From a virus: a stretch of 20,420 nucleotides of DNA. Location of the stretch: IMG/VR virus record IMGVR_UViG_3300021425_000241, positions 1-20,420 of that record. One strand, 5' to 3'. The notes beneath the pieces were generated by a model, which worked only from the letters and a program-made list of their open reading frames with translations, did no database searches and had not been told where the DNA came from. Each line of letters starts with the position of its first letter. Positions within the stretch are counted from its first letter, which is position 1. This document shows positions 7,471 through 17,607 of this stretch, one piece after another. Position numbers and translations under genes: made by a program.

Positions 7471-8340
7471 ATGCCTTCCGCAAAGAGCATTGCTGACATT
7501 AAATCGGCACTTTTAAATCCAGCAACAACTTCTCATTTTGAAGTTACTATTGATGCACCATCTGGATTAAAAGACAAATATCTCAGTCAAAATGGAGTTA
7601 AATTTGGTACAAATCAGGGAAAATTAAATCTTCTTTGTTCTGATGCCTTACTTCCAGGTTCTACTTTTACAACTCATGATATTACTGGTGATTACTATGG
7701 ATCAATTCATAGACACGCATATAGGAGATTGTATGATGATAGAATTGATTTGAGTTTTTATGTTAATGCTGAAGATTATTTACCAATTAGATTTTTTGAA
7801 GTATGGATGAAGTATATTGCAGGAGAACAAATTGCTTCTAGTGAAAGTGGTCGTTCGGGTGTTAAAGAAGAAAATTATTTTTATAGAATGAATTATCCTG
7901 ATCAGTATATTTTAAAACAAGGACTTACGGTCACAAAGTTTGAAAGAAGTAGTCTTGGTGGTGCTAAAGGTATTAGAGGAGGTACATTAACTTATAATTT
8001 TGTGAATGTATTTCCAATTGCTTTAAATTCTATGCCAGTATCATATGATACTTCTTCCTTGCTAAAGTGTACTGTTTCTCTTTCATACATTAGATATTAT
8101 GTGACACCACCACAAGTTCCAACTGCACCACCAGAAACTACATCAACTCAAAATTTTAATCTTACCACAGACCAATTAGCTGCAATAAATTCACAAGCAT
8201 TTAATCCTAATATTGATTTAACGTCGGTGTTAGGAACTAGAACTACAACGGGTGGAGTTAATTTTAATTCTGCTGCCGCTTCTGGAAATTCTATTAGCGT
8301 ACAGGATGCATACTCTGGAAATTTTAATCTCAATGTTTAG
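7471..8340 (+). CDS. 54: gp54, baseplate tail-tube initiator
   Basis: gp54 joins gp48 on the hub and starts tail-tube polymerisation. The 289-residue product (320 in T4) has an N-terminal SHFEVTIDAP segment, LLCSDALLPGSTFTTHDITG, YRRLYDDRIDLSFYVNAEDY, FFEVWMKYIAGEQ and NYFYRMNYPDQY. These resemble tail-tube-fold motifs (the LPG segment and 'I.r.yYDdi.lsFYv.') shared by gp54 and gp19-like tube proteins. The C-terminal 80 residues are Thr/Asn/Ser-rich and probably flexible. It is the first gene of the rightward tail operon, diverging from gp4; no good Shine-Dalgarno is seen before its ATG, which lies inside an A/T-rich spacer. Confidence 0.88.
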   Translation: MPSAKSIADIKSALLNPATTSHFEVTIDAPSGLKDKYLSQNGVKFGTNQGKLNLLCSDALLPGSTFTTHDITGDYYGSIHRHAYRRLYDDRIDLSFYVNAEDYLPIRFFEVWMKYIAGEQIASSESGRSGVKEENYFYRMNYPDQYILKQGLTVTKFERSSLGGAKGIRGGTLTYNFVNVFPIALNSMPVSYDTSSLLKCTVSLSYIRYYVTPPQVPTAPPETTSTQNFNLTTDQLAAINSQAFNPNIDLTSVLGTRTTTGGVNFNSAAASGNSISVQDAYSGNFNLNV

Positions 8341-8377: not shown

Positions 8378-9097
8378 ATGCCGCTTCCTCGAATTTCTAC
8401 ACCAACTTATGAACTTGAGTTGCCATCATCTGGACAGACAATCAAATACAGACCTTTTCTAGTTAAAGAAGAAAAACTTTTAGTCATTGCTTTGGAAAGT
8501 GAGGACACAAAGCAAATCACTAATGCTATTAAGGTTGTAATCAAGAACTGTATTTCTACAAAAGATGTTAAAGTTGAAACTTTACCAACATTCGATATTG
8601 AATATCTTTTCTTAAATATTAGAGGAAAGTCTGTTGGTGAACAAGTAGATGTTAATATCATTTGTCCAGATGATAATGAAACTAATGTAAGTGTGAGTAT
8701 TAATTTAGATGATATTAAAGTTGTAAAAAATGAAGAGCATACTAATAAAATTAAAGTAGATAAAAGTATTATGATGGAAATGAAATATCCATCACTTGAA
8801 CAGTTTATTAAAAACAACTTTGATTTCAATAATGAAAATGCAATGGAACAATCTTTCGATTTAATTTCAACTTGTATCGATAAAATTTATACTCAAGATG
8901 AAGTGTGGTCTACTGCAGATGTAACCAAAAAAGAACTCACTGAATTTTTGGAATCTATGAATTCTTCACAGTTCAAAGAAATTGAAAAGTTCTTTGAAAC
9001 AATGCCAAAACTTTCGCATAAAATTTCTGTTATAAATCCAAAAACTAAAGTAGAAAACGAAGTTGTTTTAGAAGGGTTAGCCAGTTTTTTCGCATAG
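8378..9097 (+). CDS. 26: gp26-like baseplate hub assembly protein (T4_baseplate family)
   Basis: A 239-residue protein of the T4 gp26 type. The N-terminus MPLPRISTPTYELELPSSG, followed by the RPFLVKEEKLLVIALESED segment (residues about 26-44), is characteristic of the family; T4 gp26 has 208 residues. In T4, gp26 takes part in assembly of the baseplate hub. The C-terminal part is acidic and helical and ends GLASFFA. The codons for SFF contain the heptamer T_TTT_TTC in the correct frame for -1 slippage, six bases before the stop, and the -1 frame stays open for 62 more codons. So gp26 may be made both as a 239-residue protein and as a 300-residue fusion, as for the lambda tail chaperones G and GT. 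The location just before tape-measure-like genes fits that role. Confidence 0.85.
   Translation: MPLPRISTPTYELELPSSGQTIKYRPFLVKEEKLLVIALESEDTKQITNAIKVVIKNCISTKDVKVETLPTFDIEYLFLNIRGKSVGEQVDVNIICPDDNETNVSVSINLDDIKVVKNEEHTNKIKVDKSIMMEMKYPSLEQFIKNNFDFNNENAMEQSFDLISTCIDKIYTQDEVWSTADVTKKELTEFLESMNSSQFKEIEKFFETMPKLSHKISVINPKTKVENEVVLEGLASFFA
9085..9091 (+). promoter_or_regulatory. Candidate -1 ribosomal frameshift site T_TTT_TTC
   Basis: In the gp26 frame the bases read ag[T TTT TTC] gca tag, a perfect X_XXY_YYZ heptamer in zero frame. A -1 slip continues at 9091 into cgc-ata-ggg-atg and stays open to the stop at 9277-9279. Ten bases downstream, 9102-9106 can pair with 9111-9115 (five pairs including one G-U, loop ATAT), a weak possible stimulator. 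Confidence 0.6.
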
Positions 9098-9099
9098 GG

Positions 9100-9279
9100 A
9101 TGGTCCATATGGATCTTGAAAGTTATTATAGATTAAACTTTGCGTTGATGCAGTACCATAAATATTCATTGTGGGAAATTGAAAATATGATACCTTGGGA
9201 AAGAGACATCTATGTTGGATTATTGCAGCAACATCTTGAAGAGGAACAATTGAAGCAGCAACAAAAAACAAATTTTTAA
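9100..9279 (+). CDS. Short tail-chaperone-like frame after gp26, probable frameshift extension
   Basis: This frame encodes 59 residues from the ATG at 9100, with a core SLWEIENMIPWERDIYVGLL and a charged, Gln-rich end (EEEQLKQQQ). A Trp-rich '.IE.M..WER..Y' segment with a charged helix is typical of the second frame of tail assembly chaperone pairs. It is in the -1 frame of gp26 and is reached from a T_TTT_TTC heptamer, adding 62 residues (from base 9091) to gp26 for a 300-residue fusion. Independent initiation is also possible: the ATG at 9109 has AGGGA eight bases upstream, which overlaps the gp26 stop region. It ends 12 bases before the first tape-measure-like gene. Confidence 0.7.
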   Translation: MVHMDLESYYRLNFALMQYHKYSLWEIENMIPWERDIYVGLLQQHLEEEQLKQQQKTNF

Positions 9280-9291
9280 TAACCAAATAGA

Positions 9292-11460
9292 ATGGCAGTC
9301 AATCAACAAAAACTTTTAGGGAAAACAACTTCAGTTCAATCTACTAAAGTTGCTCCACAACAACAGTTAATTGCTGCTCCTGCAGATACTGCAGCTCTTC
9401 AAGATATATCAAAATCATTAACAAGAATTTTACAACTTTTAACTCAACAAAATACTCAAGTCACTAACGAAGCAAATCAAGAAAGAAAGAATCAAGAAGT
9501 AGCAAGAAGAAAAAAAATAGAACTGGGTTTAGAAGGTTCATTTGCTGTGGTTAAAAATGCAACTCAGGCAATTGTTGCTCCAGTAAAAAATATATTAGAT
9601 CAAATTATACAATTTTTTGTTACTCTGTTTTTGGGAAAAGCACTATTAAACCTAATTAATTGGTTTGCAAATCCGGAAAATCAAAGTAAAGTTAGATCTA
9701 TTGCCAGATTTTTAAGAGACTGGTGGCCAAGTCTAATTGCAGGATACATTCTTTTTGGAACTGGATTTGGTAGGGCTGTAAGAAGTCTTGTTGGAATTGC
9801 TGCTCGAAGTGTAAGGTTTCTTGGTACAGTAGCATTAAATCTTACTGGTGCTATTGCAAAAGCAATTGGATTAAAGAAAGCAGGCACTGCATTATCTGCT
9901 CTTGGTGGTAGGGGTGGTGGATTAAAAGGAATTCTTGCTAAGTTAGTTGTTGGAGGTGCTGTCGCTGCTGGTGGAGCAGTGATTGCAAAAAATATGATGG
10001 AGGGTGGTGAAGAAGGAGCACCACAAATTGAAGTTCCACCAGCACCAGCACTTCCAATAGCAGAAGCATTTGGTGGTGGACTGATTGATTTTAAGACTAT
10101 GCTTGCAGCATCTGGTGGGCAAGTTGATTCTAAGTTAGGTATTCTTACACAACTTTTTGGATCTGGTGGATTTGCAAGTTTACTTCATGGATTTCCTGGT
10201 ATTGTATCAGGACCTAAAGGAATAGATAAGGTTCCTGCAATGCTTACTGATGGCGAGTTTGTAATGTCTCGTGGAGCAGTACAAAAGTTTGGCGTGAATA
10301 CTCTTGAGAGTATGAATGCTGCTGGAGGTGGAACAAATAGACCAAAAATAGTAAATAGAAAAATTTATGCGGAGGGTGGTGGATTTATTGGAAAAGCATC
10401 TCATCATATAAAAGAAGATGAAGCCTTATCTTCACTTACAAAAGGGGAAAATGATTTTATTAAACCTGGTGGACAAAGTGTCCTTAGTTCAAAACCCTGG
10501 AGTTCAGTTAAATCAAATACTCCTCTTTATTCTTATGGGGACAAATATAAAATTCCCACTATAGGATGGGGATCAACTTATTATGATAGTATTCTAAATG
10601 GGAAAAATCCTGTTAAAAGTGGAGATAGCATTACAAGATCACGAGCAGATAGTATTTTAAATGTTAATATTTTAAATCTTGCAAAAGAATATAGTAAAAA
10701 AATTCCAACATGGAATAAGATGAGTGACAACCAAAAGGCAGGAATTCTATTGGTTGGATATAATGCACCAAATGGGCCTATTGGAGCATACCCAAATCTT
10801 ACAGATGCATTAAAAACGGGTAATATGTTATCTGCCGCAGAACATGCAGTAAAGAGACGTGGACCGAGCGCATCAAGACTTTCTCTTGAAAAAAAGTTAA
10901 TATTAGATGGGCCAAAAAATTTATCAAAAGTTAATGTGCAAAAAACTGATTCTAAACCAAAAGAGAAAACAAAATCATCCGGTTTACTTGATAATATTTT
11001 CGGCGGTATTAATAAATTTATTTTTGGGGACAAAAAATCAAATCTGCCTGCATTTTTTGGTGGTGGATTGGTAAGAGGTAAAGAAGGAATTGATAATGTT
11101 CCTGCTATGTTAACTCGTAATGAGTTTGTAATGTCTCCAGGTGCAGTACAAGAGTTTGGCGTGAATACTCTTGAGAGTATGAATGCTGCTGGAGGTGGAA
11201 CAAATAGACCTAAAAATGCAACTCCACGGAGATTTAATGAATCTGTAAAATCAGTATCCTCTGCAAATATTGTAAAGACTCCACCAAAACAAAAACCAAT
11301 TACACCCACACCAAAACCAGCACCAAAAGTAATTAGTAGACCACCAGTTGCTGGTGGTGGAATGGGTGGAGCAAGAGGTGGTGGTGCAAAACCATTCATT
11401 CCATCACTTCCTTCTGGTAAATCAAATTCAAAAACGGCGAAGCAATTAGGAATTAAATAA
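9292..11460 (+). CDS. Tape-measure-like tail protein with GH24-type lysozyme domain, 722 aa
   Basis: A large tail protein directly after the gp26 pair, where tape measure genes usually lie. Residues 1-80 are Gln-rich and coiled-coil-like. Hydrophobic segments at about 105-125, 145-170 and 211-233 resemble the membrane-penetrating helices of tape measures. A module of about 45 residues containing VPAMLT..EFVMS and ending MNAAGGGTNRPK occurs twice (about 307-352 and 596-641). Between the copies, residues 383-545 look like a GH24 lysozyme: SNTPLYSYGDKYKIPTIGWG (D417 and T423 spaced as Asp20 and Thr26 of T4 lysozyme), then VKSGDSIT, IPTWNKMSDNQKAGILLVGYN and RRGPSASRLSLEKKLIL. The catalytic Glu is not at the standard spacing (residue 408 is Ser); E386 is a candidate. 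The C-terminus is Pro/Gly/Lys-rich. It overlaps the next gene by one base. Confidence 0.8.
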   Translation: MAVNQQKLLGKTTSVQSTKVAPQQQLIAAPADTAALQDISKSLTRILQLLTQQNTQVTNEANQERKNQEVARRKKIELGLEGSFAVVKNATQAIVAPVKNILDQIIQFFVTLFLGKALLNLINWFANPENQSKVRSIARFLRDWWPSLIAGYILFGTGFGRAVRSLVGIAARSVRFLGTVALNLTGAIAKAIGLKKAGTALSALGGRGGGLKGILAKLVVGGAVAAGGAVIAKNMMEGGEEGAPQIEVPPAPALPIAEAFGGGLIDFKTMLAASGGQVDSKLGILTQLFGSGGFASLLHGFPGIVSGPKGIDKVPAMLTDGEFVMSRGAVQKFGVNTLESMNAAGGGTNRPKIVNRKIYAEGGGFIGKASHHIKEDEALSSLTKGENDFIKPGGQSVLSSKPWSSVKSNTPLYSYGDKYKIPTIGWGSTYYDSILNGKNPVKSGDSITRSRADSILNVNILNLAKEYSKKIPTWNKMSDNQKAGILLVGYNAPNGPIGAYPNLTDALKTGNMLSAAEHAVKRRGPSASRLSLEKKLILDGPKNLSKVNVQKTDSKPKEKTKSSGLLDNIFGGINKFIFGDKKSNLPAFFGGGLVRGKEGIDNVPAMLTRNEFVMSPGAVQEFGVNTLESMNAAGGGTNRPKNATPRRFNESVKSVSSANIVKTPPKQKPITPTPKPAPKVISRPPVAGGGMGGARGGGAKPFIPSLPSGKSNSKTAKQLGIK
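10286..10343 (+). repeat. 58-bp direct repeat, copy 1
   Basis: Identical to 11153-11210. It encodes part of the conserved tape-measure module ending FGVNTLESMNAAGGGTNRP. The surrounding module (from about 10210) is also similar between copies at the protein level but has diverged in DNA. The distance between copies is 867 bases, exactly 289 codons. Confidence 0.95.
11153..11210 (+). repeat. 58-bp direct repeat, copy 2
   Basis: Identical to 10286-10343, downstream of the lysozyme-like domain in the same gene. The flanking module (from about 11077) matches the first module in protein with several silent or conservative DNA changes, whereas these 58 bases have none, which suggests recent homogenisation or strong constraint. 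Confidence 0.95.
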
Positions 11461-14400
11461 TGGCACCAATAGTTTCTCCTTTAACCGGTACTTTAAAATC
11501 TATAAAAACACAGTTTATCAGTAAAGAGAAACTGTTAAAATCTACCTTAAATGTTCAGCAAAAAAGAATCAATTTAAAAAGAAGTAATGCCGAAAGAGAA
11601 AGATTTATAAATTATGAAAAAGTTCTAGAGAGACCTCTGGCATTTTTAGGAAAACCTATAAGATCAGTTGCTAAAAGACTAGGATTTCTTGATGCTCTCA
11701 AAAATTTTATAGTAAATGTATTACTTGGTTTTTTTGCTTTAAGATTACTGAAGTATCTTCCACAATTAAAAAGTGTTTTTATTGGTATTCTAAAGGCAGG
11801 TAATTTCATTATAGATGTTGCTGGAAGTATACTTAATGGTCTTGTCACATTTATTGATTATGGATATAAGGGATATGATCACGCAAGAAAGATAGTTGGT
11901 AAAATTGGTGGTGATAAGGCAATACAAGGTTTAGATAAAATGACTGGTGAAAGCACCAAGTTAATCAACCAAATGTTGATTGCTGGAATGCTTTTCAGTG
12001 ATTTCAATATATTTGGTGGGATGAAAAGTGGACAGAGTGTTTTTAATAAAACCGTTGATACGATTAAAGATACTGTATCAACCGAAGTTGCAACTGCCAC
12101 GGCACAAAGAACTGCTAGTGTAGCAGCAGTTAAGGCAATGGGTCCTCTTGCAGCAGGTGGAGTTGTTGTTGGTGCAGGTTTACTTTTATCTGCTGCGGGA
12201 GAAGGAATATTTCAACTCACTAGATGGGTAAAAGGAATAAAATCTATTTCTGGACCTGCATCTTCTCTCTTTAGTATTCCTTTGGGAATTGTTGAAGGTG
12301 TTGGAACCATTTTTGATATTCTTGGTGCTCCTTTTAGATATGGTATTGAATTGATTCGCGGTGGATTTATGAAACTTTTTGATGATAAAAGTGGATTAGA
12401 AAAACAGGCAACGAATCTTGGTAAGTTTGATGCTAGAGTGAGAGAAAATTTGAGAAGATTTTCTGGACTTTTTTCTCCACTGTTTAAGTTTTTTGGTAAG
12501 AATGATATTGCAAAAAAATTACAAACTCCCGGATCTTTTGGGAGTCTTTATGGTGAAAAGGCAGTTAAAGATATGGGATATTATGGTGGTGGGAGAGTTA
12601 TAAAAGTCAAAAAGTATGCTTCTGGTGGTCCAGTTTTAATTGAAAGAACTGAAGTTAAAGAAATTAATATTGAAAGAACAGAAACATCAAAAAAAAGTGA
12701 ATTAAATATTGGTTCTTCTATTGGTGGAGAACTTAATTTTGCAAAAGTTTTTCCTGGATCAATTGACGATCCAGGAAGAATGAATCGTTATGAATATATG
12801 GGAAATGCTCATGATAGTATTCAAGGTGCTGCAGATATTGGACCTGTAATGGCGCTAACAACCAAGACATTGTTAGGAGATCAGGTTTCAAAAATGGATT
12901 ATGATAATGCAGGAAGATCTTTATCTGGTTTTATGTTGAGAGGTCTTCAAGATCAAAATCCAGTTGCTTATAATTCTTTATTAAATGTTCTTGATTATAA
13001 TCAATTTACTGGTGTGATTTCTACTTTTTTAATGAAATCAATGAAAAATCCACTTTCTGGTATCTTAAATCTATTGAGAGATCAGGTTGGTCTCGCACCA
13101 GTTCCTGGAGATGCTACTGGAACTGAAGCAGATCCATGTGCCGCTGCTTGTGATACTGGCAGCGGTCAGTCTGTATATGGAGATTCTGTTGATAAGGCAA
13201 TTCTTGATTTGATTTCATCTGTCGAAGCACAAAGTTATGATACAATGAACGTGTCTAGAGGTGCCACTGCAGGAAAACCAACTCAAATGACAGTTGATTG
13301 GTTGGTGGCAAATGCAAATGGTGCGATTGGTCGATACCAACAAATGCCTGAGTATCTTAAAGAGCGTGTAATTGCTGCTGGTGGCAAGGGGAGTGATAAA
13401 TTTACTCCAGAATTGCAAGACAGGGTAGCATTAAAAATGCTTTATTCAGGTCATGGATTTTCCCGATGGAGAAGTGGACAAATGAGTAATGAAGAGTTTG
13501 GTGATCGTCTTTCTGCAACTTGGAGAGGTCTTCCTCATAGGAGTGGTGGAACTTATCCCGACCGATATGCAGGGAGAAACAAAGCACATATATCCAGACC
13601 TGCTTTTATGACTCGTTTATCACAAATTAGAGCGGGTGGTGGTAGTACAATCTCCCCAAGTTCTCCTGCAGCAAATGTAGATCCTTGTATTTGCGATCCT
13701 GATATTCCCTCTGGAGATCCTGGAGATATTTCTGGAGCTACACAATTAGGTACAGGAACTTTTATTCAAGGAAGTACTGGAGAATCAACCGGACCACACT
13801 TTCACATTGGACCAACTGAAATTTATGATCCAAATGGAGATAAGTGGATTGGGAGAAAAACCGAACAAGGAAAAGCATCCTCTAGAGGAGCTGCTTTTCA
13901 AACCATTAAAGGGTTTATTAAAAATAAAATTCCAATTACACTCACAAATGCAGGCATTTCTATAAATCCAGGATCTCCTCCAGATGATTCCACAATAAAC
14001 AAATATATTATTAAAGAACAAGTTGGACATGCGACTAGATCTAGAGGAGGTTCTTGGGGAGGAATCGATCTTGCTGGTGCCGCCGGAATAAGATTTCCTC
14101 TTGCAGTTGGACCTGTTGTAAGTAGTGTTCATGGTTTTGGAAATGCTGCAAGAATTCTTGGTACAAATGCTTTTGTTGGGCATGGAGCGACTGGATCAAC
14201 TGGATCTAGAGAAGGTGGTGGACCAACATTATCTGGAGGCATAAGATTACTTCACAAAGGTGAGTATGTAATTGATAAAGACTCTGTTGATTTATTTGGT
14301 GGAATCCCTTTCTATAGTATGATTAATGGTGTTGAGAATGAAAAACAAAGAACAGAAAAATCTTCTCAATTAATGCAACATCTTAGTAAATACACTGGAA

Positions 14401-14549
14401 GAAAAATAGATCAAAGACCTGAAGTTATTTACGAAGGTGATGAAATTACTTATCTTCCATCTCCTCCAATTTACATACCAGCAGGATCTAGTAGTTTTGG
14501 ATCTTCTGGTGGTGAGAGTAATTATGAATATGATGTATTGGAACGTTGA
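11460..14549 (+). CDS. Tape-measure-like tail protein with muramidase and permuted M23-like domains, 1029 aa
   Basis: A paralogue of the next gene: both share LGFLD..KNF near residue 75, a hydrophobic N-terminal half, D(I)LGAPFRY at about 287-294, NLGKFDARVRE at 319-329 and a C-terminal EYVID.DSV.LFG module (935-947). Two enzyme-like domains follow the structural half. Residues 575-725 resemble a phage muramidase/transglycosylase: candidate Glu E589 (SSVEAQSYD), GAIGRYQQMP at 621-630, FTPELQDRVALKML at 648-661. Residues 755-912 carry M23 peptidase motifs in reversed order: GESTGPHFHIG (H780, H782) first, then WGGIDLAGAAG (D870) and GFGNAARILG...VGHG (H908). The usual zinc His four residues before D870 is Trp866. 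Cys pairs at 560/564 and 743/745 flank the muramidase. The start ATG overlaps the previous stop (TAATG). Likely virion tail protein for envelope digestion during infection. Confidence 0.8.
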   Translation: MAPIVSPLTGTLKSIKTQFISKEKLLKSTLNVQQKRINLKRSNAERERFINYEKVLERPLAFLGKPIRSVAKRLGFLDALKNFIVNVLLGFFALRLLKYLPQLKSVFIGILKAGNFIIDVAGSILNGLVTFIDYGYKGYDHARKIVGKIGGDKAIQGLDKMTGESTKLINQMLIAGMLFSDFNIFGGMKSGQSVFNKTVDTIKDTVSTEVATATAQRTASVAAVKAMGPLAAGGVVVGAGLLLSAAGEGIFQLTRWVKGIKSISGPASSLFSIPLGIVEGVGTIFDILGAPFRYGIELIRGGFMKLFDDKSGLEKQATNLGKFDARVRENLRRFSGLFSPLFKFFGKNDIAKKLQTPGSFGSLYGEKAVKDMGYYGGGRVIKVKKYASGGPVLIERTEVKEINIERTETSKKSELNIGSSIGGELNFAKVFPGSIDDPGRMNRYEYMGNAHDSIQGAADIGPVMALTTKTLLGDQVSKMDYDNAGRSLSGFMLRGLQDQNPVAYNSLLNVLDYNQFTGVISTFLMKSMKNPLSGILNLLRDQVGLAPVPGDATGTEADPCAAACDTGSGQSVYGDSVDKAILDLISSVEAQSYDTMNVSRGATAGKPTQMTVDWLVANANGAIGRYQQMPEYLKERVIAAGGKGSDKFTPELQDRVALKMLYSGHGFSRWRSGQMSNEEFGDRLSATWRGLPHRSGGTYPDRYAGRNKAHISRPAFMTRLSQIRAGGGSTISPSSPAANVDPCICDPDIPSGDPGDISGATQLGTGTFIQGSTGESTGPHFHIGPTEIYDPNGDKWIGRKTEQGKASSRGAAFQTIKGFIKNKIPITLTNAGISINPGSPPDDSTINKYIIKEQVGHATRSRGGSWGGIDLAGAAGIRFPLAVGPVVSSVHGFGNAARILGTNAFVGHGATGSTGSREGGGPTLSGGIRLLHKGEYVIDKDSVDLFGGIPFYSMINGVENEKQRTEKSSQLMQHLSKYTGRKIDQRPEVIYEGDEITYLPSPPIYIPAGSSSFGSSGGESNYEYDVLER

Positions 14550-14556
14550 ATAAGAT

Positions 14557-17500
14557 ATGGCATATCAACCACTCAAAAATCCAACTACATTTATTATTAA
14601 AAAACAAGTAATTCGTGTTGAAAAACTTGTAGGGCAAAGAAATAAGTTCAAAACTGTTGCACTTAAACAAAAAATAAAACTTCAAGAACTGGGACGCAGA
14701 GAACAAGCAGAGAAAAAACTAGAGACAAAAGGAACTGAAAAATTAGTATCAAATAAAATCCAAACTCCTAGACTTGGATTTCTTGACTTCATAAAGAATT
14801 TTTTATTTTCTGTTTTATTTGGCGCATTAACTCTTAAGTTATTACCACATTTACCAAAACTTAAAGGACTATTAATTACAACTCTTAAAATTGGTAATTT
14901 TGGAATTGAGTTTGCTGGAACCATTTTAAATGCAATGGCAACTTTTATTGATAAGGCATATCAAATAATTGATTTCGGTAAGCAACAGGCAAAAATTTTA
15001 GGTGGTGATACTGGTGTAGAAAATTATGAAAAAACATTAGGAATAGCAAATAAAGTAATGAACGGAATGTTCATTGCAGGTATGCTCTTTTCAGATCTGA
15101 TTGTACTAAAAGCACAAACGGATTCCAATCAATCAACTCTTAATGAAATCGGACAAGAAGTTGTTGAACAAGTAGCAAAAAGACAAGGATTTAGATCTGC
15201 TATTCAATCTGTTGCTGGTAAAATTGCTAATATTGCAGGTCGCGCTAATCCAATTCTTCTTGTTGGAACTGCATCTGCTATTTTAGGTGAGTTAGCATTT
15301 CAACAAAGAAAGTTTGCTCAAAATTTGGAGAGGCAAGTTGCAGATAAACTCAAAGAAGCACAAGAAGATAAGAATCCTATAACAAGAGCTATCAAACTTA
15401 ATACATATTCTAATTTTGCTCTTCCTGGACTTAAGTTTTATAATTTTGTTTCTACTGCGATTGGATCATTATTGGATATTATTGGAGCACCATTTAGATA
15501 TCTTGGTGAATTAATTAATTTTGGTATTATGTCTTTAACTGGTGATGCTAAAGGTATACAAACTCAAAGAGAAAATCTGGGTAAATTTGATGCCAGAGTG
15601 AGAGAACAATTTCGCCAACTCACCAATACTTTAAGTTTTGGACTTCTTGCAAAAGAAAAAGGATCTTGGGGAAATATCTATGGAGATGATGCCGCCCAGA
15701 AAGGAATGATGAATAGGATGTATGGTGGCGGAAGTGTCAAATCTTTTGGATATGCGGAAGGTGGTTCCGTATCTAGAGGTGGTGAACTAGTTGGTGGTGC
15801 TATTGGACGAACCGGAGTTAAAAAATCAGTAGCAAGAACAATTGAGATTCCAGTTTCTCCTTTGAATCCTGGTGCTGATGTTGGCGGATCAACACCTTAT
15901 ATGAATCCTACTACAGGTAAACCCACTGGTATTTCTAATATTGAAACCTTTTTTCCAAATCCAGAGGACTCAAAATATGTAAGTCCTTTTCGATATTTAA
16001 CAAAATCTTATGGTGTTGCTTCTATTGGTAATTTTATAAAACCATTCTTGCTGGTTCCAATTAAAATCATTATGGGTGATGGATCTGCTTTTTCTAATTC
16101 TGTTGCTCTTGCAGCGGCAGTCAATAACTTATTCAATAATATTCTTTCTAATATATTTGTTCCAGGTACAAAAGAAACACTTGCTGATAAAATTGGGGCA
16201 GTTGATATTTTGAGTTGGGCAGCAAGAACCATACAAGAAACTATGATGACACCATTGAAAGAGTTGAGGTCTGCATTAATTTCTCAATTTGGTTTGAGAT
16301 CTGGAACTGGAGATGGGTCAGCAGTTTCACCATCAGCACAAAAAGGTGAAGGTGCTGGAACAAATCCTCTTGCTGAGTTTGCTGGACAAGCACAATTTGT
16401 AATTGGTGATAGTATCGCTCACGGATTTGCTGGAAGATCTGGTAATGGTGATAATGGCAGTGATACTCAAGTAGGTCGTAGTTCTGCAAATGTTTTAAAA
16501 ATACTTCAAGCAAAAGGTGATGCTCTTAAAGGAATGCTCATTGATTTATCAACTGGTATTGCCAACTCTCCAGGAGATCTTGTTTCCGTTGAGGCACAAC
16601 TTTCATATCTAAAATCGATTGGGGCAAGAGTTCGTGTTCTTGGCGTTTCTAATTCATTTAGTGAAAAGAATGGAAACTTAAATCAAAAGTTAGACCAAAT
16701 GATAAAGAAATATGGATTTTATTTTTATGGTGGTTATAAAGGAGCAGCGGATGGAGTTGATGGAACTGCAACTGATTATGCTGAATTAAAAACAAAAAGA
16801 GATAGAGATGTTGAGGCGGCAGGAAAGGGTGAAGTTTCTTCAGATTATAAAGTTTCTTCTGGTGCGGTTAATCCAAAACTTATATACGATTACTTAAAGA
16901 GTTTGGGAGTTTCTCATACACATGCTTTAGGAATACTTGCAAATATTAAAGGAGAAAGTGATTTTGTTCCTGGTGAATCTGAAAGTGGTGGACCTGGAGT
17001 TGGTCTCTTCCAGTATTCTGATAATGATAGAAAACTAAAGTTTTTGAGAGCGGTTCCAAATTATAAAACCGACTGGAGGGGACAAATTTCATATGCTGTT
17101 AAGGAAGATAGAGCACCAGAGTATCTTGGAATTTCCTTCTCTTCTCCACAAGAATCTGCTGAATGGTGGATGAATAAATGGGAAAGACCTGCTGCTTATG
17201 TAAAGTCTGGTAGAAGAACAAAACATAATCAGTTTATTGCTTCTTTTGGGGGTTTAAAACAAGCACTTCATGGTGGTTATATTGACAAAACTCAAGATGT
17301 ATTAACTCACCCAGGCGAATATGTAATTGATGCTGATTCTGTAAAATTATTTGGAATTAATTTTTATGATATTATTAATCAAACTGAAACAATCACTCAA
17401 AGACAAAGAGCATCACAGAGTCTAATGTCTATTTTAAGTCAATATACTGAAGATGGATTTCTAGAAACTGAGCATGACTATACATATAATGTTCCACAGA

Positions 17501-17607
17501 GTCAAATAGTCATGCTACCACCACAAGTTATTCCTATCGGATCTGGTGGAATTTATAGTGGAAATAATGGTGATGATCCTTCTTATGATTTTACTGAAAT
17601 ATGTTAG
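14557..17607 (+). CDS. Tape-measure-like tail protein with SGNH-like and phage tail lysozyme domains, 1016 aa
   Basis: A paralogue of the preceding gene along most of its structural part: PRLGFLDFIKNF at 71-82, a hydrophobic stretch at 83-130, FIAGMLFSD at 172-180 (shared as IAGMLFSD), DIIGAPFRY at 307-315 and ENLGKFDARVRE at 339-350. Residues 612-745 look like an SGNH/GDSL hydrolase: block I GDSIAHG at 617-623 (Ser619), LIDLSTGIAN at 661-670, and the C-terminal block ADGVDGTATDY at 731-741, where the usual Asp-x-x-His reads D732-x-x-D735. Residues 769-900 match the phage tail lysozyme family: ALGILANIKGESDF with E800, then GVGLFQYSD and a Trp-rich AEWWMNKWERP. The C-terminus repeats the GEYVIDADSVKLFG module and ends in a Pro/Gly-rich tail with a terminal Cys. 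It starts eight bases after the previous stop. Confidence 0.8.
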   Translation: MAYQPLKNPTTFIIKKQVIRVEKLVGQRNKFKTVALKQKIKLQELGRREQAEKKLETKGTEKLVSNKIQTPRLGFLDFIKNFLFSVLFGALTLKLLPHLPKLKGLLITTLKIGNFGIEFAGTILNAMATFIDKAYQIIDFGKQQAKILGGDTGVENYEKTLGIANKVMNGMFIAGMLFSDLIVLKAQTDSNQSTLNEIGQEVVEQVAKRQGFRSAIQSVAGKIANIAGRANPILLVGTASAILGELAFQQRKFAQNLERQVADKLKEAQEDKNPITRAIKLNTYSNFALPGLKFYNFVSTAIGSLLDIIGAPFRYLGELINFGIMSLTGDAKGIQTQRENLGKFDARVREQFRQLTNTLSFGLLAKEKGSWGNIYGDDAAQKGMMNRMYGGGSVKSFGYAEGGSVSRGGELVGGAIGRTGVKKSVARTIEIPVSPLNPGADVGGSTPYMNPTTGKPTGISNIETFFPNPEDSKYVSPFRYLTKSYGVASIGNFIKPFLLVPIKIIMGDGSAFSNSVALAAAVNNLFNNILSNIFVPGTKETLADKIGAVDILSWAARTIQETMMTPLKELRSALISQFGLRSGTGDGSAVSPSAQKGEGAGTNPLAEFAGQAQFVIGDSIAHGFAGRSGNGDNGSDTQVGRSSANVLKILQAKGDALKGMLIDLSTGIANSPGDLVSVEAQLSYLKSIGARVRVLGVSNSFSEKNGNLNQKLDQMIKKYGFYFYGGYKGAADGVDGTATDYAELKTKRDRDVEAAGKGEVSSDYKVSSGAVNPKLIYDYLKSLGVSHTHALGILANIKGESDFVPGESESGGPGVGLFQYSDNDRKLKFLRAVPNYKTDWRGQISYAVKEDRAPEYLGISFSSPQESAEWWMNKWERPAAYVKSGRRTKHNQFIASFGGLKQALHGGYIDKTQDVLTHPGEYVIDADSVKLFGINFYDIINQTETITQRQRASQSLMSILSQYTEDGFLETEHDYTYNVPQSQIVMLPPQVIPIGSGGIYSGNNGDDPSYDFTEIC

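Follow-up and report, generated by a model that had tools for sequence, protein, structure and literature searches.

In phage lambda, the tail assembly chaperones gpG and gpGT are a short form and its -1 frameshift fusion, encoded between the genes for the tail tube (V) and the tape measure (H), and a G/GT frameshift is otherwise general in long-tailed phages, with T4 listed as the exception (review PMC5009743). The same review notes the low sequence similarity among the tail chaperone genes of different phages and places the Shine-Dalgarno (SD) elements that stimulate -1 shifts 9-14 nt upstream of the shift. Phage P2, which has a contractile tail, carries its frameshift gene between the tail tube and tail length genes (FII-E/E+E'-T), and gpE/gpE+E' uses a TTTTTTG heptamer with AAGGTGG just 5' of it. 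In E. coli dnaX, an upstream SD-like element, a slippery heptamer and a downstream stem-loop act on a shift that shortens the product, with a frequency of about 50%. For T4, gp26 and gp51 are listed as hub assembly chaperones, with gp51 absent from the particle, and genetic studies placed gp26 in the hub (review PMC3004832). The tail assembly chaperone genes of T4-like phages were identified in 2022 (Vladimirov, Gautam and Davidson, Virology 566:9-15); according to one paper citing that study, the TAC-N genes of T4-like phages are known to carry poly-T slip signals, and according to another, some T4-like phages instead have a short gene alongside a long, fused one. In cyanophages, gp51 is about 20% of its usual length and seems to be without its first ~200 residues (Sullivan 2010).

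We analyzed a 20.4 kb virus record from a T4-like cyanophage (hereafter, the window), whose closest records are Synechococcus phages. The parts of the locus between 7471 and 11460 are on the + strand. An earlier note, made from the letters alone, had proposed that gp26 and the frame that follows it are joined by a programmed -1 frameshift. Having compared the locus with its relatives, we consider it very likely (probability roughly 0.92) that gp26 is decoded in two ways, as a short form and as a -1 frameshift fusion, and that the two products are a tail assembly chaperone pair.

The gp26 gene (8378..9097; 239 aa) would encode the short, G-like form (TAC-N), and matches the family of T4 gp26 and gp51 through the PF12322 T4_baseplate domain (E 7.9e-76) and phrog_150 (E 3.4e-79). 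Direct reading of the sequence confirmed the slippery heptamer T_TTT_TTC at 9085..9091, in the exact zero frame of gp26 (AGT TTT TTC, the X_XXY_YYZ arrangement) and separated by one codon (GCA) from the TAG stop that ends the short form (9095..9097). The -1 frame is free of stops from 46 nt 5' of the gp26 stop up to a TAA at 9277-9279. Its extension (9091..9279), a T-like or TAC-C domain, runs for 62 codons past the shift and matches phrog_634, 'baseplate hub assembly catalyst' (E 2.6e-27), so the predicted fusion has 238 + 62 = 300 aa, as the earlier note had calculated; every coordinate that it gave was correct. A 59-codon ORF (9100-9279), whose homologue is annotated as gp51 in other cyanophages, sits inside this extension. 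The main genes of the window contain 16 strong heptamers in frame, which puts the chance of one near the end of a gene at roughly 4%. The heptamer by itself is unremarkable in the window, and its significance rests on conservation.

To assess conservation, relatives were collected from IMG/VR with gp26 queries, together with named phages, which gave 331 loci with a readable junction (KVP40, Cr30 and VAP7 yielded few relatives when used as queries). In 327 of the 331, TTTTTT lies close to the stop of gp26 in the X_XXY_YYZ frame, the next base being C (243), T (55), A (28) or G (1), and the -1 frame was open and conserved from the slip site in the loci examined; the comparison across T4-like relatives that the earlier note had suggested was thereby passed. 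The heptamer was found in Kyanoviridae, Schizotequatrovirus, Aeromonas phage 65, Delftia PhiW-14, and Stenotrophomonas, Pseudomonas, Caulobacter and Methylophilales phages. For further analyses, the 327 heptamer-bearing loci were grouped by shared 10-mers into 176 clusters, leaving out the four loci without the heptamer.

Codon usage at the site indicated that nucleotides are held as well as residues. The first codon of the heptamer always has T in its third position, across Ser, Asp, Asn, Gly, Ala and Thr (41% T at third positions elsewhere in gp26), and the second is always TTT, which accounts for 72% of Phe codons elsewhere. Away from the slip site, Phe-Phe was spelled TTT-TTC in 10 of 181 cases. 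Leu replaces the second Phe in 12 clusters, by TTA or TTG, leaving the U6 run intact, and the nucleotides are thus retained where the residue changes. In 29 loci of a marine clade (L282-L340; e.g. L282, L297, L317), the gp26 stop lies 21 nt further downstream, the heptamer is unmoved at the homologous Phe-Phe, and the two frames overlap there; in the members inspected, the -1 frame is without an ATG 5' of its conserved core.

The heptamer is flanked by two putative stimulatory elements. An SD-like GAAGGG (9071..9076), about 9 nt before the heptamer, would act as the 5' stimulator (anti-SD energy of -4.6 in the window). The run in relatives is rich in purines and GAGGG(A/G)-like, its invariant GG lying nine bases 5' of the heptamer, and pairing of -4 kcal/mol or below was found in 93% of the 176 clusters compared to 13% at the same offset elsewhere in gp26. 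Since the Gly at this position is itself invariant, the codon bias (GGG in 28% vs 6% elsewhere) is the cleaner sign. The probable 3' stimulator is a stem-loop 10 nt past the heptamer (9102..9115; GGUCC-AUAU-GGAUC, 5 bp, -4.5 kcal/mol). The earlier note had called it a weak hairpin, which is right for the window, where the 60 nt 3' of the heptamer fold no better than shuffles (z +0.46), though not for its relatives. The best hairpin downstream of the heptamer averaged -8.5 kcal/mol vs -4.3 at control positions. Across 63 sequences of the window's clade, the 5-bp stem had 35 cells changed on both sides, paired far better than slid versions, and was equaled by 0 of 500 shuffles, which ignore relatedness. 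In the S-PM2 clade the stem reaches 11 bp or more, with z = -5.5 in one member. An Rfam search returned no relevant match. By sequence, the SD-like run, the U6 heptamer and, in relatives, the covarying stem-loop constitute a frameshift cassette of the dnaX and P2 type, with a shift that lengthens the product, presumably at low frequency, where that of dnaX shortens it.

A competing explanation, raised by the earlier note as independent initiation at 9109, makes the 59-codon ORF a small gene of its own (gp51'), with an independent start or termination-reinitiation at ATG 9100 or 9109. The AGGGA eight bases 5' of ATG 9109 is real and pairs well (anti-SD energy of -7.8 kcal/mol), and this good SD counts against frameshifting in the window, as does the weak 3' structure. 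Public cyanophage records (e.g., S-SM2 and S-PM2) also annotate the ORF as its own gene, and an ATG precedes the conserved core of the -1 frame in 119 of the 176 clusters. The other 57 have none, and 41 have no ATG, GTG or TTG there, so that separate initiation cannot easily yield the whole domain in those phages. AGGGA at the position of ATG 9109 is retained in 3 of 176 clusters, and SD strength is at background over all candidate ATGs (14% vs 14% in the control), or 5.6% when restricted to the first ATG (9100 in the window). Moreover, selection on the -1 frame starts at the slip site, 5' of any start. When codon changes were counted pairwise over the six codons that separate the slip site from the position of ATG 9109, the N/S ratio was 0.37 in the -1 frame vs 0.66 in the zero frame, and 0.28 vs 1.29 in the clusters without ATG, GTG or TTG; 168 of the 176 clusters retain the His (or Tyr) immediately 5' of the ATG 9109 position. 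The low N/S ratio and the kept residue indicate that translation of the -1 frame begins at the slip site and not solely at a later start. A separate gene would in addition leave the invariant heptamer, the SD-like element and the stem unexplained, and T4 gp51 is itself a through-fusion. The pattern of separate genes with their own starts and ribosome binding sites was thus not seen, and a separate gp51' gene is quite improbable as the source of the domain. As a general mechanism, independent initiation was rejected on start codons and SD strength, and what is left of the proposal is a minor extra product that may be made from ATG 9109 in this phage, given its good SD.

The fusion could also arise by transcriptional slippage on the T run, a homopolymer of six T in the window and of seven or more in some relatives. 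Runs of six T are usually too short for slippage by bacterial-type polymerases, and most relatives have exactly six T and then C. The frame of the heptamer, the stem-loop, and an SD-like element at the spacing expected for a ribosome suit ribosomal slippage instead, and we regard a transcriptional origin as hardly credible.

The four loci without a canonical heptamer are from the Vibrio phages VAP7, K364, Kuja and 207E48.1, of which K364 is unclassified but similar to the other three, classed as Ackermannviridae. Three other Ackermannviridae likewise are without it. All seven (L087, L088, L089, L096, L350, L351 and L352) have N_NTT_TTY at the gp26 stop (e.g., A_ATT_TTC, C_GTT_TTT and G_CTT_TTT) and keep the -1 ORF, which counts against the frameshift reading. 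A GTTTTT slip motif has been proposed for Vandenendeviridae and Andersonviridae in a paper citing Vladimirov et al. 2022, and a weaker slip site is thus possible in these phages. TAATG occurs at the stop in five of the seven (it is absent in Kuja and 0507-KN2-1), and either a slip site or reinitiation is possible for exceptions of the Ackermannviridae type.

Comparison with T4 supported the fusion. In T4, gp26 and gp51 share matches to PF12322 and phrog_150, and gp51 has a further match to phrog_634, to which the 59-codon ORF belongs. In the alignment, T4 gp26 terminates with GLKEFFELL at the shift site, whereas gp51 runs on with VFKLLVNPDEIF..., colinear with the frameshift product, and the -1 extension of the window is colinear with the C-terminus of gp51. 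KARL-1 is the same as T4, with gp26 terminating at the shift site and gp51 reading through; in Aeromonas 31 and P4-3, gp26 ends within a few residues of the site and gp51 reads through, and RB43 gp51 is likewise fused through it. The products of the window and of T4 are thus homologous, and the difference lies in the genes, since 26 and 51 of T4 are separate, divergent, on opposite strands, and without a frameshift. Given where T4 gp26 ends and that gp51 is a through-fusion, the T4 branch uses two genes where others appear to frameshift. The 2022 study of these genes reportedly found frameshifting conserved in several T4-like groups, with 26 and 51 separate in T4. As a separate observation, a C-x2-C pair (e.g., CPKCGNH) in the C-terminal part of gp26 precedes the slip site in KVP40, Aeromonas 65, PhiW-14, YB07, Astolliot and T4 gp26, and cyanophage gp26 is without it.

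The architecture of the locus resembles that of the described chaperone genes. A short form (239 aa) and a predicted C-terminally extended form of the same protein (300 aa) correspond to lambda G/GT, with a counterpart in T4 gp26/gp51. Like the lambda and P2 genes, gp26 follows a tail tube-like protein gene (7471..8340; PF23849 Phage_TTP_2 E 1.7e-12, phrog_45 tail tube E 6.4e-30) that is syntenic with lambda V and P2 FII. On its 3' side is a 722 aa protein (9292..11460), a candidate tape measure by its position and weak resemblance to such proteins (best tape-measure PHROG 1.8e-7; it also has a lysozyme-like domain). The locus differs from lambda in its slippery site, which is GGGAAAG in lambda, and in showing no sequence similarity to gpG, and from P2 in size (gpE is about 91 aa). 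Searching gp26 against a single lambda gpG sequence with hhalign gave a probability of 0.1%, that is, no detectable homology; given the low similarity among chaperone genes, the missing match does not define the family. Sequence searches of the PDB returned no relevant match. The AlphaFold model of gp26 (pLDDT 85.7) had the HK97 tail assembly chaperone (gp13, 2OB9) as its best match among 350,542 PDB chains, though a weak one (prob 0.89, TMt 0.43, E 0.5), and YqbN (3klu) was the sixth, with matches at E 0.5 and above. The weak HK97 match and the missing gpG match count against the identification, while architecture, synteny and the T4 products support gp26 and its -1 extension as a G/GT-like chaperone pair, as the earlier note had suggested.

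A real frameshift could nevertheless serve another function, the pair being, for example, a baseplate hub component and its variant. The historical names (baseplate hub subunit or catalyst) and the genetic placement of T4 gp26 in the hub favor such a role (PMC3004832), whereas that review also counts both gp26 and gp51 among the hub assembly chaperones and reports gp51 as absent from the particle. As the architecture and synteny match those of lambda and P2, and the best fold match is the HK97 chaperone, we consider a non-chaperone role unlikely.

For the chaperone pair, we infer that the frameshift takes place in vivo, with a low efficiency, and that the products serve as chaperones in this phage. 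Most ribosomes would terminate at TAG 9095 and release the 239 aa gp26. A minority, paused by contact with the upstream SD-like element and by the downstream stem-loop, would slip back one base on U_UUU_UUC and produce the gp26-gp51' fusion of 300 residues. The two forms would then work as a pair, like gpG/gpGT of lambda and gpE/gpE+E' of P2, with the shared domain coating the tape measure protein and the extension recruiting tail tube subunits. Gene 26 (short form) and gene 51 (in-frame long form) would be the sources of this pair in the T4 lineage.

The earlier note was not aware of a description of such a frameshift for gp26, and in this it falls short. The principle is not new in kind, as T4-like chaperone genes with poly-T slip sites were reported in 2022, and the pattern seen here agrees with what citing papers say of T4-like phages, namely poly-T slip sites in some and a short gene with a fused long gene in others. 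No description of a cassette of three parts with covariation, of its rebuilding from clade to clade, or of the clades without starts was found in the literature searched, in which Vladimirov et al. 2022 was represented by papers citing it, and the anatomy of the stimulators and the Ackermannviridae variant may be undescribed. The breadth of its occurrence among relatives suggests that the frameshift is ancestral. A fuller scenario is tentative, and we put it slightly short of even odds: a complete dnaX-like cassette would be ancestral in the whole T4 superfamily, with the stem rebuilt in each clade, T4 would have escaped by duplication into 26 and 51, and Ackermannviridae would have switched to N_NUU_UUY.

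The relatives of T4 thus keep the frameshift cassette, and gp26 and gp51 of T4 appear to be its two products split into two genes. This would also explain the short 'gp51' of cyanophages (Sullivan 2010), as gp26 would contribute the missing ~200 residues by way of the frameshift. In public cyanophage records (e.g., S-PRM1 and ACG-2014d), the -1 extension bears the name baseplate hub assembly catalyst (gp51), is called a hypothetical protein, or is unannotated. It is joined to gp26 in none of the deposited cyanophage records looked at, in which the long form is represented by a separate small gene or missing.

Further downstream of the chaperone locus, the window encodes two large proteins (11460-14549 and 14557-17607), either of which may be the tape measure instead of the 722 aa protein. 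They are tandem paralogues (BLASTP 2e-48, 26% identity), and both end in a GEYVID motif. The similarity of the 722 aa protein to these two is marginal (E 0.012).
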